A stretch of DNA of 64,000 nucleotides from Bacillota bacterium (GTDB lineage: Bacteria > Bacillota > Sulfobacillia > Sulfobacillales > Sulfobacillaceae). Positions 2,066-10,909 of this stretch are shown here, one piece after another. The position numbers were made by a program, and so were the translations under genes. The notes below the pieces were generated by a model. The model searched no databases, was not told the origin of the DNA, and saw only the letters and a program-made list of their open reading frames with translations. Where the stretch lies: positions 1 through 64,000 of the forward strand of contig JAKACM010000007.1 in the NCBI GenBank assembly GCA_021821465.1, given 5' to 3'. The stretch's first letter is position 1, and the number at the start of each line of letters is the position of its first letter.

Positions 2066-2583
2066 GTGCAGTAAAGTTCGTTAGCGATGGCGCTTTGCAT
2101 GACCACCGCGACGACCAAAATATGCCGTTGGGTTTACCACAGCCGCTTTAAACCAGTTGGTACATAAACCGGCACACCCCTAGTTTGTATTGCGCATTGC
2201 GATCGGCCACGGCCTGTTGAATCCATGTAATATGGTTCGCAACGGCCAAGTCCCACGCTTGTCAATCACCACGTGGTAGAGGCCAAAAACCACATCAGCA
2301 ACGGCACCTTGGACCAACGGAACACTGCCCCGGCGGTCCTGTCGATGGCTAAGTCACGCCTTGGATGCCAACAAAGGGGGCAACCACACCCGTGCCCCCA
2401 GCAAATGACAGTCCGTGACACTACTGAATTCCTTCCGCCATTCGATTAAAGTCATGGCGGCGCGGCATCTCCTCTCCACTTTGGTTCCGTTTTTTTGTTC
2501 ATTTTTATAAGAACTTCCTCCGCCGGTGGAGTTTTTCGGAGTTACCTGCCCAAGGCATTTTCTTTTCAAGCAAAGGCATAAAG

Positions 2584-3453
2584 TTAGGACTTTCTTTGGG
2601 TCGTTGCGGGTTCATCCCCGACCCAAGAGGGCAAATCATTGCCTTCCCCGGGGACTGTAACGGCGAATCCCCCCAAAGAACCGTCACCATAGGTCCTGGG
2701 CCAGCTTCGCTCACTTCTTCGGAAAGCTGTGGGCCGCAATACAGCCATAGGGGTTCTTTGTGCCCCCTGACCCATCGGATTGTCGCGCAAGAGGTCCACC
2801 ACCAAATTCTTGTCTACAAAGTTAGATCCGGCCAGAACTTCGGCCCCAATATCATTGACATCGACAATAGCTACCCCCGCACCAAATACCTTTGATAACT
2901 GGTTCGCCAACTTTTTGCCTGAGCGAGGCGCCAACACGATGTACTGATCATAGGGGGGGATCGTCGTGGGTCCGGGACCGTCAATCGAAGCCACCCGTCT
3001 CCCGGCTATTCGATAAAAATCCCCTGAGCGTCCAAAAATTCGGTCGCAAGCCCCAATTCCTGCGGCTAAAACTATTCTAGGCAGGCCCACCTCACGTATG
3101 GCCATTTCCATGGTTTCAGGGCGCCTAAGACCTAAACCATAACCAAGCTGTCGAACGTAACGTGACAAGAATCGCGCACTCCACCCGGCCTTGACATGAC
3201 TCAAGGGTATCGCCCGCCCTTCCGATATAGCCACAACCTTTTCTCCAAGAACGATGATATCCTCAGCCCTAACCTTGTTTTGAAAATAAGGAAGAAGAGT
3301 GCGGGTCAAATTCTCGCCGGGCTGTATCAAGTGGGTACGGATTACATACCTCAAATATCGTTTGTTTCCAATCTCCTTAACAGGTTTTTCTATCCATGTC
3401 CCATTACCATGGTCATCGGGAGGTACATCCGGATAAATTGGACTATCAGCCAT
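2584..3453 (-). CDS. Coenzyme F420-0:L-glutamate ligase (CofE-like) domain protein
   Basis: 289 aa; LGEKVVAISEGRAIPLSHVKAGWSARFLSRYV and VVDLLRDNPMGQGAQRTPMAVLRP resemble the CofE fold family. Confidence 0.65.
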   Translation of the reverse strand: MADSPIYPDVPPDDHGNGTWIEKPVKEIGNKRYLRYVIRTHLIQPGENLTRTLLPYFQNKVRAEDIIVLGEKVVAISEGRAIPLSHVKAGWSARFLSRYVRQLGYGLGLRRPETMEMAIREVGLPRIVLAAGIGACDRIFGRSGDFYRIAGRRVASIDGPGPTTIPPYDQYIVLAPRSGKKLANQLSKVFGAGVAIVDVNDIGAEVLAGSNFVDKNLVVDLLRDNPMGQGAQRTPMAVLRPTAFRRSERSWPRTYGDGSLGGFAVTVPGEGNDLPSWVGDEPATTQRKS

Positions 3454-4808: not shown

Positions 4809-5099
4809 GACACCATAGGCATTTCAAATCAAGCGATTAGCACGGCAATCCGGCAGGCCTTTCCGGATGCCAAGAATCCCTTGCCTTTAATGGCTCTACC
4901 CAGTGAGATCTATGGGCAACAATTTCAATGTGTCCAAATTGGTACCCAGCAGATGGCCATCCCTCATGTTGGCGCACGATATCCTCAGGATGGCGAACGG
5001 GTTTCTCAGGGTATTGATCCCCAACTGTTTATTACATGGAAGGGACATCCAAATCCGGATTCTTGTGGCCGTTTACTGGATTTCGCAAGCCGTCTTTAG
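4809..5099 (+). pseudogene. N-terminal fragment of an unrecognised protein family, diverged paralog of 7027-7686
   Basis: Frame reads ISNQAISTAIRQAFPDAKN...VSQGIDPQLFITWKGH; compare 7027-7686 ILQKQAIATAFRTVFPDAPS...VTKGVDPYLFILREGH; no ATG at the expected start. Confidence 0.5.
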
Positions 5100-5245
5100 T
5101 CACGGACGGTATTTGTGGGGTCCCGACAAGAATTTTTCCACCATTCTCGCCGGGGGAGTGTTAACAGGTTCATACCTCACGGTTCTGATCGGGATCCAGA
5201 TCGAATTCGTGCGGGAACAGTTGACGTTTACGGGGGAGGATTCCC

Positions 5246-6653
5246 CATACGCGCTAACTTAAGGGGAGGTATCGTACTGAAGACGTCGTTTCCGGGGTCG
5301 TTCATGGAGATGTCGTTTCCCATGTTGAGTGGGTCGCCTCCAGTCCTGGATATCGAGAAAGCCTGGCACGAGTTGGCAGAGGTCATTCCCGATGAGTGGG
5401 GTATAGCGCCAAACGGCGCGGGATATCGGCGCGGACGGGATATCCATAGGGAAAAAAAGAGCCGTCCGGGTTCTGGAAAGCATCGACGAGGAGAGCCCCG
5501 AGGACTTTGGCTAATAGGTAGGTTTGTGCCAGTTTCGGATCGAATGCCTGCAAATGATCGAGATGGAGGAGACTTTTGAGGCGCTTGAAGGCACACGCGA
5601 TTTGCCAGCGCAAGCGGTACCGATCCAGAATGTCGGTCGCGGACCCAGGCCGTTTCGGGTCAGGGGGTCACAATCAATACATAATCGGCCGCGTCCAACG
5701 TCTTGGCTGACACGGTGTGGCCATGACGACGCGCCGTTTGACGAGCTTGACGGCGACTTGCTGCCGCGGCCTCCGGGGATTTGCGGATCGCCACAACGCG
5801 GAGCCGCAAGGGTGGGCTTTGGCGAGTCGGGCGAATTTGCACCCACCATTGTCCGGGGGTCGTGTCCGTCAGCGTCCGCACGGCTTCCAGAACATCCCAT
5901 GGGTCTCCCTCCAATGTTTCCCAGCGTAAAGCATTCCATCCAAACCGGGCAATCACATGCGCCTGCCGATCGACGATCCAGGCCAACGCCGAGGCTTTCG
6001 CGTCATTCCGATCACTCAAGACGACATCATTGCGCTGCCAAGGCAATCGGGTTAAGGATTCCCCTCCGTGCTGATCCGTGAGGTCGAGTCCTTCCCACCG
6101 TTTTTCTGCCCAATTCCATGGGGCATGGAGGCGCCAGGTCGTCCCGGGACTCCCGGGTTCTTGAATCGTCGTACTGTCGGTCAAGACGAGGCGAAAGGGA
6201 AAGGTCCGCGGTGTCTCCAGACCCCGTTCCACAAACCCACGGTCCACTCAATGTCCCCACCACGCCTCGGCGTGGCGTAACCGTTTCAAGACGGCCACAT
6301 TGGACAGACTTCCGAGACCCGTCCGTTCGGCCCCACTCGCCACGGTGCGCAAAGACCAATCATTCCCGGCATACGCGAAGATAAGGCGTAACAGAGCTTC
6401 GGCGCTCTGAATGGCCCGCCGGCGCATGATCGCATGCTGCTCCCAGGCCGCATCTTGCCAACCTTTCGGCAAAAAATGCAACAAAAATGCCCAGCTTTCC
6501 TCCCACACGGTCTTTGAAGACTTCACCACCATATCCTCCTCGTGCCTAAACTGTTCCTCTTTCGATCACTGCGGGATATCTGGGAAAAGTCCTTTACGTT
6601 TCGAAAAATTTTTTTAAGTTTATTTTATAGGGTCAGCTAAGTTAGCGCGTATG
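5246..6653 (-). mobile_element. IS4-like insertion sequence, 1408 bp, 16-bp terminal inverted repeats, 11-bp target duplication
   Basis: CATACGCGCTAACTTA at 5246-5261 and its reverse complement TAAGTTAGCGCGTATG at 6638-6653; GGAGGATTCCC at 5235-5245 and 6654-6664. Confidence 0.85.
5259..6532 (-). pseudogene. DDE transposase (IS4-like), broken by an in-frame TGA and at least two frameshifts
   Basis: Fragments in order: 6532-6248 (...HAEAWWGH*), 6247-5660 (LVLTDSTTIQEPG...DAADYVLIVTP*), 5613-5383 frame (DILDRYRLRWQIACAFKRLKSLL), 5483-5259 frame (HLHERPRKRRLQ). Confidence 0.8.
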
Positions 6654-6972
6654 GGAGGATTCCCCCATGGCCCCTCTGCTCTTGTCCGTCATGGGAGCTT
6701 TTGCGGAATTTGAACGGGCTCTGATGCGGGAACGGAAACGGGAAGGCATTGCCTTAGCCAAAAAGCAGGGGGTATACAAAGGCCGCCAACCCGCCTTGCA
6801 GCCGGCTCAAGTCGCGGAACTGCGGCAAAAAGCCCAAGCGGGGGCCAAGAAAGCCGTATTAGCCCGCGAGTATGGCATCAGCCGGGAGACGGTGTATCAA
6901 TATCTCAGACGTTGACTATGGCGAATGTCTGCATGTCTGAGCTCACGACGTTTTAAGCCATAAAATGGATCG

Positions 6973-7010
6973 GTTATCGAGGTTTTTCGTTCCATTACTA
7001 CTGATACCCC
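6973..7010 (-). repeat. Tn3-type 38-bp terminal inverted repeat (outer end at 7010)
   Basis: Reverse complement is GGGGTATCAGTAGTAATGGAACGAAAAACCTCGATAAC; matches 10142-10179 at 36/38 positions; lies 57 bp after the resolvase stop. Confidence 0.85.
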
Positions 7011-7026
7011 TAAAAGGAGAAGAATC

Positions 7027-7686
7027 ATGGATTATGTCATCTTACAAAAGCAGGCCATTGCGACTGCATTTCGTACGGTCTTTCCGGATGCACCCTCAGA
7101 TTGGCCTCTTGTCGAGCTTCCCGATGATGGGGGCGACCGCAATGTTCAGATGATCCAATGTGGAAGTGACTGGCGGTGTGCGATTCCGCACGCGCAAGCC
7201 TATGCGGAACGTCGATCGTCTTCATTCCGGGGGCGAAAATTTCATGTGGATCAATGGGAGGAAAATGGGTGGGGGGTTACGAAAGGAGTGGACCCTTATT
7301 TGTTCATTTTACGGGAAGGGCATATGCATCGCTTGTATTATGCGTTTTATCGGGTCATTCCGTTGCATGCGTCCAGTGGAATGAATGAGGAGTGGAAGAT
7401 TTGGGTGGAAGACGGGGAGTTGCTTGTGCATCTGTGGCCTTTGCGTGATCCCTTACATCCCTCCGTCATTCCGCCGTTACCAACGAGACCCTTAGTGGTA
7501 GTCGGTACCGATGCAGGCTTATGGCTGGGGCGGGCCTGGAGTCGGGGAACGACCCATCCGCACACGGTGTGGGATCTCTTGGAGAATGCGCTGAACACGA
7601 TGATGGATTACGAGATGGAGCAGCCCCCACTACCTATCGTGGTGCCAGGATTGACTATTCAGGGCCGCCAAGCGGTGATCCTTTAG
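7027..7686 (+). CDS. Hypothetical protein, 219 aa, intact member of the island-specific family
   Basis: AAAAGGAGAAGAATCATG start context; open over 219 codons; similar segments at 4809-5099 and about 10288-10401. Confidence 0.75.
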   Translation: MDYVILQKQAIATAFRTVFPDAPSDWPLVELPDDGGDRNVQMIQCGSDWRCAIPHAQAYAERRSSSFRGRKFHVDQWEENGWGVTKGVDPYLFILREGHMHRLYYAFYRVIPLHASSGMNEEWKIWVEDGELLVHLWPLRDPLHPSVIPPLPTRPLVVVGTDAGLWLGRAWSRGTTHPHTVWDLLENALNTMMDYEMEQPPLPIVVPGLTIQGRQAVIL

Positions 7687-7777
7687 TGTAAGACCGACGA
7701 CAGGCGTCCTGCAGTCGTCGGTCAATGGTCGAAAATCTCGTATGGGAATAGGCTTTTATCCATCGGCCTTGTTCGTA

Positions 7778-8565
7778 TTACTCTAATTTTTGAGCATAAA
7801 GTCCTACGTTTACCCACCAGGGATTGATGGATTCCTCGCGTCCGTGCCAAAGTTTTCTCGTGTAATTGCCGGCAACCGGATAACCCGTTTTGACGTAGCC
7901 ATTCCAAATACCCGAGTTGGTGTTGCCTACGAAAATTCCTTCTGTCACCTTCCAACTCATAAATGGGACTGTCGTCGTAAATGTTTTGAAGTACTCCGTA
8001 CTCCGATAGGCGTATTCAATACCACTAAATTGGTGAACTGTAATCTCTACGGCGGTTTGCTCCACTGTAAGGTTCTTCCAGTTATGCCAATAGAGCATAT
8101 GCTGCCAGCCAAGTGTTTGGCTACCGTCGCTTAGCGTGACATAGCGGCCATCGCCCCATACGCGCCAAATTACATCACCGAGAGATGGAGTTGTCGATGC
8201 TTGGATGGTCGAAAGAGAGGGGAGAAGAGGAAGGACCGGTGCGGTCGATGTTCTGGTCAATCCGTATTGATTATCATATTGCTGAATCGCGGTTATAACA
8301 TAAGCTACCTGGCTAGGGGACAGTCCGTGTTGAGCTAACGCTGCGGTGCTGACGACACGTAGCCAGAGTCGGTATTAATATGTTCAGTGGCACGGGCGAC
8401 TTGTGCCGCTTGAGTGCGTTGGGCGGCAGTCAAAGATGGTAGAACCATCGTGGATGTTTGGGCGAGTGCAGGACTAGAAGCTATTAGAGGACCTCCAATA
8501 AATGCTACAGAGGCAAGCACTCCAATCCCTAATTTCCCCTTATGTTGCAATAAATCGACTGACAA
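7778..8565 (-). pseudogene. Exported hypothetical protein, frameshifted
   Basis: Signal peptide ORF 8565-8335 (MSVDLLQHKGKLGIGVLASVAFIGGPLIASSPALAQ) continues in another frame as STAALAQHGLSPSQVAYVITAIQQYDNQYGLTRTSTAP... into ORF 8260-7778. Confidence 0.65.
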
Positions 8566-8652
8566 TAAAATCTCTCCCTTACCCTTACATGTTTTTACTC
8601 ACTAAGAGTTCGGGGGAAAATCACGCACTCCTGTTTTAGTTAGCGAAAAGAT

Positions 8653-8690
8653 GGGGTATCAGTAGTAATGGAACAGCAAACCGGAATAAG
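8653..8690 (+). repeat. Tn3-type 38-bp terminal inverted repeat (outer end at 8653)
   Basis: GGGGTATCAGTAGTAATGGAACAGCAAACCGGAATAAG; first 22 bp identical to the other two copies and ends in TAAG. Confidence 0.75.
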
Positions 8691-8910
8691 AATTCACAGG
8701 TATTCCAGATGGGGTAGTTTGACGAAAACCCCGCAATGTCCATGAGGGGTCCCGCCCACAAAACGCGGATTTCCCCCGGTATAATTGGTCAAATATGGCA
8801 GGTCATCAGTGGCAGTGGACATAAACCTTGTTTTTTGGATGTCACCACAGAACAGAGAATAAACACGGTGCGTTGCAGGGATAAACCGAATGGGATACAC
8901 TCAAACTAGA

Positions 8911-8939
8911 AAGGCCCCCCGCGGCAAACAGGGGGCCGG
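8911..8939 (-). terminator. Rho-independent terminator-like hairpin downstream of the 26-aa ORF
   Basis: GGCCCCC...GGGGGCC inverted repeat; minus strand continues into TTTCTAG. Confidence 0.6.
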
Positions 8940-8949
8940 TGAGGGACTG

Positions 8950-9030
8950 TTATCGACGGTTGCGTCGTTTCCAGAGCCAGAGCAGATAGAGGCCTAGACC
9001 ACTAACCGAGACCGTAATCTGAATGTGCAT
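8950..9030 (-). CDS. Small hydrophobic peptide, 26 aa (MHIQITVSVSGLGLYLLWLWKRRNRR)
   Basis: AAAGGAGGTGAGGGCGG immediately before ATG; single hydrophobic segment with basic tail; hairpin downstream. Confidence 0.55.
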   Translation of the reverse strand: MHIQITVSVSGLGLYLLWLWKRRNRR

Positions 9031-9243
9031 CCGCCCTCACCTCCTTTCTAGGAGGTCGCGCTGGGCGAACCCTCACCGCTATTCTACCAGCTTGTCCTTG
9101 CGGGCAGGCTGGTCTTTTGTGGGCAGGCATTCTTTTCCCCTGTAGCGGCTTCAAATACCCCTTTAGCGTGTGGTTCATTGCAATATGCAACTCTGCGAGG
9201 CACAATGGACATGACTACCATGAGCACAAGCGAAACTTGAGCG

Positions 9244-9324
9244 GATGAGCGCGCCACGCCTAAAACGCTCTCTACATAAGGATGATATAAGCGTGGCGCT
9301 TATGTAAACAATTCGGCGCTCATC
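9244..9324. promoter_or_regulatory. Cluster of nested inverted repeats upstream of the MerR-like gene
   Basis: GATGAGCGC (9244-9252)/GCGCTCATC (9316-9324); GCGCCACGC (9251-9259)/GCGTGGCGC (9291-9299); TACATAAG (9273-9280)/CTTATGTA (9299-9306). Confidence 0.55.
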
Positions 9325-9344
9325 TGAGCGAAAGAGGTTCTACT

Positions 9345-9940
9345 ATGGATGACTGGCCAACCCTCCCCCAATTAGCCCGTGAATTAGATATCGCGGACAG
9401 TACGGCCCGGCGCTGGGCTGCATCGTTTTTTGACTTTCTTCCCACCAAAGGGCATGGACCGACGCGCCGCTTTCATCCTCAGACACGAGAAGTCTTAAAA
9501 CGCATACAAACTCTTTACGCTTCGGGGTTCAACACTGGGCAAGTGGCCGAGGTGCTACGCCACGAATTTCCTGCAATCATCAACACCGTAGCCATCCCCG
9601 CGAGTGATGAGCGAGTGCATGAGCGCAAGGATGTTGCCCCCCTCCAATCCGCTTTGGTATCACTTATGGAACAGCAAACAGCACACATGGCCCACATGCA
9701 AGAACGCTTCGTGCAAGAGCTCAGGGAGACAGCAACGCGCTTAGAAGAGGAATTGACCGCCACACGAACAGAAAACGCTGGGATTATATCGACAAACGCT
9801 TGGAAGAGCGCGACCGTCAGTTGACCCAAACTATGCGGCTCGTGATCGAAGAGAAACAAGTCACCCAGAGAAAATCCTGGTGGCAACGGATTTTTGGCCG
9901 GCCGGAAATGATGATGGTTGCGCGCTCGTGTAAGGCTTGA
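9345..9940 (+). pseudogene. MerR-type HTH plus coiled-coil plasmid protein (DUF3967-like), frameshifted near 9780
   Basis: ORF 9345-9824 (DDWPTLPQLARELDIADSTARRWAASF...) continues in the next frame as DYIDKRLEERDRQLTQTMRLVIEEKQVTQRKSWWQRIFGRPE... Confidence 0.65.
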
Positions 9941-10141
9941 GCCACAGCAGCACGGCACGGCCCGGTAATCTGTACCTGATCCCTCGCGAGATCCCGATAG
10001 GCAAACCACTGGGGATAATGCGGTCCGGCCACGACAAATCCGGTGGATGTACAGGCCTCTAAAACACCATCCACAAGGTTCATAACGTGGCGTTTGTGAT
10101 CCGGTTGCCGCAAATGCACGGAAATCGTACTACCAATATAC

Positions 10142-10179
10142 GGGGTATCAGTAGTAATGGAACGAAAAACCTCGCTAAG
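10142..10179 (+). repeat. Tn3-type 38-bp terminal inverted repeat (outer end at 10142)
   Basis: GGGGTATCAGTAGTAATGGAACGAAAAACCTCGCTAAG; 26/38 identical to the remembered Tn3 IR GGGGTCTGACGCTCAGTGGAACGAAAACTCACGTTAAG. Confidence 0.85.
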
Positions 10180-10287
10180 CGATCCAGTTTATGGATAGGG
10201 ATAGTCGCCGTGAGCCATGTCTTCGGGCAACGATCTCGGTGCATTGCGCCCCCTGTGCGTGCAAAACTCAGGAACCTTAGAGTAAAG

Positions 10288-10401
10288 AAAACCGGTAGAG
10301 AGATTCCGATCCACGCCTACAGCTTCGAGGTGGATCAGCCCCCTCCTCCCGTAGCGGTTCCAGGACTGATCGTGAGAAGACGTCAGGCAGTAATTCTGTG
10401 A
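10288..10401 (+). pseudogene. C-terminal fragment of the 7027-7686 protein family
   Basis: FEVDQPPPPVAVPGLIVRRRQAVIL* versus YEMEQPPLPIVVPGLTIQGRQAVIL* at the end of 7027-7686. Confidence 0.7.
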
Positions 10402-10909
10402 GCGGGTGGCCCAGGGCAAAGCATAACTTTTAATTTAACTCTGTTCCGGCTAAAAAACGCCGACCAGAGTACCAATCCGCTTAATCCATCCCCCGCGACC
10501 GATCATGATCCAACCCATTGAGCCGAGAAGACACGCCATCTTTTGACCATCCTTCAAGTAAAAACATCCCTCAACTTGATAGAATAGTCCGGAGTCTTGA
10601 AGCTCCTCTCTTGAGTTGACAAACCTCTTGTGAGGAGCTTCGACATGCGCACGCAAAAATCATTTGCATCCCACACAGAAATTTCATACCATCAATTCCC
10701 TGACGTTACCATGCATTACCTGGCATTAATTCCCTCACAAAAGTGAGGTACACCCGTCTTGATCATCACCTTGACAGTGTCTCGTTCCGTTTATTCCCCA
10801 GGCCCCGTTATTTAAACCCCATCGTCTCTTGGGTTAAAGCCAAGTGTCGGAAAATCGGAAAAAACGAACGGGAGAGAAATGGGCAGCCACACGGGAGGTC
10901 TTGCCTGGT

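Follow-up and report, generated by a model that had tools for sequence, protein, structure and literature searches.

Transposons of the Tn3 family move by means of a transposase, TnpA, that joins their terminal repeats to a staggered 5-bp target to form a cointegrate, which the resolvase TnpR then resolves. Tn4430-like members of the family carry a tyrosine recombinase. Described as well are TIMEs, in which two inward-facing ends enclose a short core and which are accompanied by 5- or 6-bp duplications, the resolvase-bearing form being known as TIME-RES (PMC4133298). The window, by which we mean the whole 64,000-nt stretch of DNA analysed here, resembles TIME and TIME-RES in having Tn3-type ends that lack a transposase gene, with a resolvase fragment beside one of them; unlike the ends of a TIME, its ends are unpaired. 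It also differs from intact tnpR/tnpA transposons, as it offers isolated ends and gene fragments without 5-bp duplications. We argue that its three related repeats, termed a, b and c, are very probably terminal inverted repeats left by decayed, replicatively transposed Tn3-family transposons. The features concerned are as follows.

5191..5246, plus strand: upstream piece of tnpR, the 5' part of the gene missing (98-100% identical to uninterrupted tnpR in contigs C123 and C177)
5247..6652, minus strand: IS4-like insertion within tnpR, with a decayed transposase (terminal repeats, target duplication, uninterrupted sites)
6655..6915, plus strand: 3' part of tnpR, serine resolvase (Pfam Resolvase and HTH_7 on 6667-6915; 98% identical to the C123 copy)
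6958..7010, minus strand: copy a, 53-bp terminal inverted repeat of type IR1, tnpR-side end, outer tip at 7010 and element body leftward (nhmmer E 1.2e-18, model without the window)
8653..8690, plus strand: copy b, 38-bp end of a second subtype, IR1b, element body rightward (IR1b model, E 4.6e-10)
8746..8789, plus strand: fourth Tn3-type end, assigned to a third lineage together with the C45 transposon (nhmmer E 2.6e-15, model without the window)
10142..10194, plus strand: copy c, 53-bp terminal inverted repeat of type IR1, tnpA-side end, outer tip at 10142 and element body rightward (nhmmer E 6.6e-20)
10157..10233, minus strand: remnant of the 3' end of tnpA, overlapping copy c (tblastn with the C-terminus of the contig C84 tnpA, E 1.1e-5)

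The preliminary description had placed 38-bp units at 7010-6973 (minus), 8653-8690 (plus) and 10142-10179 (plus). All three are confirmed by an exact 22-mer, which occurs three times in the 64,000-nt window, at 6989-7010 (minus), 8653-8674 (plus) and 10142-10163 (plus), where dinucleotide shuffles predict zero matches. Throughout the 4.96-Mb genome, 18 occurrences were found at up to three mismatches, and none of the reversed control. Copies a and c agree at 36 of 38 positions, exactly as reported before, and b agrees with either of them at 31/38. The length of 38 bp holds for copy b but not for a (6958-7010) and c (10142-10194), which share a 53-bp terminal repeat with 94% identity. When compared with the Tn3 terminal repeat, copy c matched at 26 of 38 positions, copy a at 25 and copy b at 21; the value for c reproduces the earlier one. 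Terminal repeats of about 38 bp or longer that start with GGGG are present at a and c (53 bp each), at b (38 bp) and at the end at 8746.

Comparison with other copies in the genome located the element boundaries. Copy a is identical to C123:2931 at 350/356 positions inside the tip and at 12/60 outside it; for copy c and C123:10043 the corresponding values are 57/59 and 15/60. Indeed, closely similar copies with unrelated flanks stop exactly at the GGGG terminus, and such divergence precisely at the terminal G marks the end of a transposon. The interiors of the genomic copies fall into two main classes, a tnpR side leading into the C-terminus of a serine resolvase and a tnpA side leading into that of a Tn3 transposase, with a few copies outside both. 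Copy a is the end on the resolvase side and copy c that on the transposase side, and they very probably stem from two broken elements that belong to a single lineage.

Dispersal in 18 copies could also be seen with a regulatory or REP-like genome-wide repeat unconnected to transposons, which the preliminary description had named as the finding to look for against its own view. When we ran this search, the repeat proved to be dispersed throughout the genome, yet remnants of tnpR or tnpA adjoin most copies, and on the inner side only; moreover, the repeat lacks self-complementarity by inspection and is not a palindromic REP, and the same sequence delimits an intact Tn3 transposon. The linkage to tnpR and tnpA thus refutes a REP or regulatory repeat, to which we assign next to no likelihood.

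The genes belonging to the ends survive as fragments. As had been noted, the resolvase gene ends 57 bp inside the 38-mer of copy a, its stop codon ending at 6915, 57 bp before 6973. This serine resolvase, the window's counterpart of a Tn3-family site-specific recombinase, is truncated at its 5' end, starting at 5191, and is interrupted by a 1.4-kb insertion. The insertion has perfect 15-bp terminal repeats and is flanked by a 13-bp target duplication, GGGAGGATTCCCC, at 5234-5246 and 6653-6665; the tnpR site without it is seen in C123 and C177. Its broken transposase matches the IS4 family weakly (E 2.4e-5, under the curated cut-off). The reported lack of tnpA is correct for a complete gene: a large (~1,000 aa) Tn3-family transposase gene is absent from the window, whose sole trace of one is the antisense scrap at 10157-10233 beside copy c, 77 bp of the 3' end, that the earlier account had missed. 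We have therefore filed the window copies as remnants and not as a transposon. Nor was an intact element bearing the exact repeat found in the genome, whose nine tnpA matches are fragments or belong to other lineages.

Intact relatives do exist elsewhere. A repeat-pattern scan of the genome_contigs collection, comprising 84,980 species genomes, returned 17 stretches. One of them, L100 (JAFGUC010000062.1), is the full Tn3 element with the same terminal repeat for which the preliminary description had suggested a search. This metagenome-assembled contig of 4,151 bp carries the repeat at its start and at its end, the outer 28 bp on either side being the same as in copies a and c. Its genes for a serine resolvase of 295 aa and a transposase of 994 aa each stop 57 bp short of an end, the two at opposite ends. 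Against the NCBI Tn3 transposase model, which has a cut-off of 500 bits, the transposase reaches 811 bits; its match to the Tn4430 transposase, a protein with a solved structure, has an E value of 1e-106. The window resembles L100 not only in the outer 28 bp but also in that its scraps of tnpR and tnpA lie in the same order and at the same distance from the ends. L100 is catalogued as part of a Woesearchaeota MAG, which leaves its true host in doubt.

Three elements are bounded by a sister repeat, GGGGTTTCTGTAGCAATGGAACGAAAATGGC: one of 8.8 kb in genome G038, one of 16.7 kb with the 5-bp duplication AAATT in the congeneric genome G003, and one of 9.7 kb on the Sulfobacillus thermotolerans plasmid pL15. 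It is through this sister repeat and the tnpR/tnpA layout that these elements resemble the window. The intact relative of the lineage of a and c is arranged as IR-tnpR(-)-tnpA(+)-IR, and tnpA is intact in L100, G038 and G003. With one intact tnpR-tnpA transposon bounded by the same repeat and several elements by its sister, the earlier proposal that the window holds ends of at least two decayed Tn3-family elements is well founded. The terminal repeat pattern had no match among the viral contigs searched, and no near plasmid relative of 6655-10400 as a whole was seen among the best-ranked matches, which cover the tnpR part alone at no more than about 70% identity. A pattern match in Clostridium ljungdahlii (L106) was discarded; it has no tnpA or tnpR similarity in the 8 kb of sequence examined and may be due to chance.

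The preliminary description had allowed for miniature derivatives, that is, for complete TIMEs or MITEs, which are short, non-autonomous and mobilised in trans by a Tn3 transposase acting on their two inward ends. Such units occur in the same genome, where internally deleted forms with two inward ends measure 784 bp (C48) and 1,892 bp (C169); genome G007 also carries one of 588 bp, and a 427-bp unit in G017 with the end type of the third lineage has duplicated its 5-bp target, TTATA. In the window, however, copy a points leftward whereas b, c and the end at 8746 point rightward, so no two ends face inward and no unit is bounded; the outer ends of the copies at 7010 and 8653 do face each other, as had been claimed. 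The earlier failure to find matching 5-bp duplications extends to the genome, where none links any pair of the 22 ends examined. Thus, without an inward pair and without 5-bp duplications, the copies are solo remnants and not complete miniature elements. The miniature reading is refuted for 6973-10179, where no inward-facing ends surround a short core, and we regard it as highly improbable.

Two further Tn3-type lineages or subtypes very probably account for copy b and for the end at 8746. Copy b fits the IR1b model (E 4.6e-10) better than the IR1 model (E 1.8e-5), the window having been excluded from both, and by this comparison is the end of a subtype different from that of a and c. In genome G008 the IR1b subtype lies directly downstream of a tnpA whose product is 57% identical to the sister transposase. 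The C45 element, which matches the end at 8746 by end type, encodes a Tn3-family transposase together with a tyrosine recombinase, as in Tn4430-like elements; compared with it, the window keeps the single end at 8746, and the flanks of the C45 element match over no more than 3 bp. Several Tn3 lineages thus coexist in one genome.

Another arrangement has to be weighed for copies a and c. Being opposite ends, on the tnpR side and the tnpA side, of elements in the same orientation, they are placed as a cointegrate would leave them. They could accordingly both stem, as its two transposon copies, from a single old cointegrate that was never resolved, with 7011-10141 as a captured segment of a donor replicon, a segment that contains a gene for a MerR-type regulator. 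But the inner flanking 5-mers are unlike (TAAAA vs TATAC), no replication gene was recognised within 7011-10141, and two independent insertions account equally well for the arrangement. We consider a cointegrate origin improbable.

Other genes lie amid this debris. The MerR-type helix-turn-helix regulator gene is at 9345-9824, between copies b and c. An intact ORF of 219 aa and of unknown family occupies 7027-7686; a full-length relative was found in just one of 41 related genomes searched and a partial one in another. The transposon debris is flanked by partial paralogues of this ORF, the one at 4809-5048 corresponding to its N-terminal part and the one at 10321-10398 to its C-terminal part, and their position on both sides suggests that the stretch was broken up by insertions and deletions. 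Copy a does not seem to supply an outward promoter for this ORF, as no sigma-70-like match was found in 6600-10600.

A small repeat at 8913-9113 has a ribosome-binding site and start motif that recurs in the genome (n=5) and a few times in related genomes. It encodes, at 8950-9030 on the minus strand, the peptide MHIQITVSVSGLGLYLLWLWKRRNRR; the four copies compared encode hydrophobic peptides of 26-29 aa and are situated close to Tn3-type ends. A terminator lies downstream of the peptide, and a convergent terminator lies on the opposite strand at 9086-9113. From its sequence the repeat looks like a type I toxin with an antisense RNA.

Elsewhere, at four loci in the genome and in three related genomes, we observed short units that combine one IR1 or IR1b end with a different end, GGGTGTTTTTGCCC...CGAAAA (L030:2053-2346, L029:10043-10300, L032:8390-8680, L034:7741-8034, L079:5978-6340 and L080:3955-4233). 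In the better copies this second end measures 38 bp, and its closing TTAAG recalls a Tn3 repeat from a different lineage. The four units of the genome itself measure 258-294 bp, differ in their flanks on both sides and have no 5-bp duplications. A MITE was rejected for the unit on contig C84, the left end of which is this second, different Tn3-like end, found at four loci with differing flanks. In L030 a hybrid unit interrupts a gene that by eye resembles the enolase superfamily (2300-3186); the remainder of that gene was not recognised across the unit. These units may have moved as such, or they may have been assembled by nested insertions; that they are hybrid miniature elements moving with two non-matching ends, the GGGTGTTTTTGCCC end and an IR1-type end, strikes us as rather unlikely.

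In conclusion, the identity of the repeats, the boundaries of the elements, their linkage to tnpR and tnpA and the existence of intact relatives all lead to decayed Tn3-family transposons. The repeats exceed chance, are dispersed and adjoin remnants of tnpR and tnpA; similarity halts at their tips, and L100 is bounded by the same outer 28 bp; the sister element has duplicated AAATT, and the 5-mers flanking the ends are 77% A+T. Against this count the absence from the window of a target duplication and a complete tnpA, and the failure to find in the genome an intact element with the exact repeat. By analogy with the family, in a living element TnpA would act on two inward-facing repeats, cutting at the GGGG tips, and the element would be copied into an AT-rich 5-bp target, giving a cointegrate that TnpR would then resolve. 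The bodies were presumably lost later through deletions adjoining the ends, and the IS4-like insertion has broken the tnpR fragment; the order of these events is conjectural. With no complete gene and no paired ends, the parts in the window could not transpose by themselves.

The annotation of these repeats as transposon scars is now settled; both the precise boundary of the element and its intact type have been identified. The locus is an unremarkable collection of transposon remnants whose value is chiefly for annotation, and intact members of the lineage occur in other genomes. It adds a family of terminal repeats that is found in Sulfobacillus-type Firmicutes and, beyond them, in at least one distant metagenome contig. 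The only point of wider interest is the mobility of units with two mismatched Tn3-type ends.
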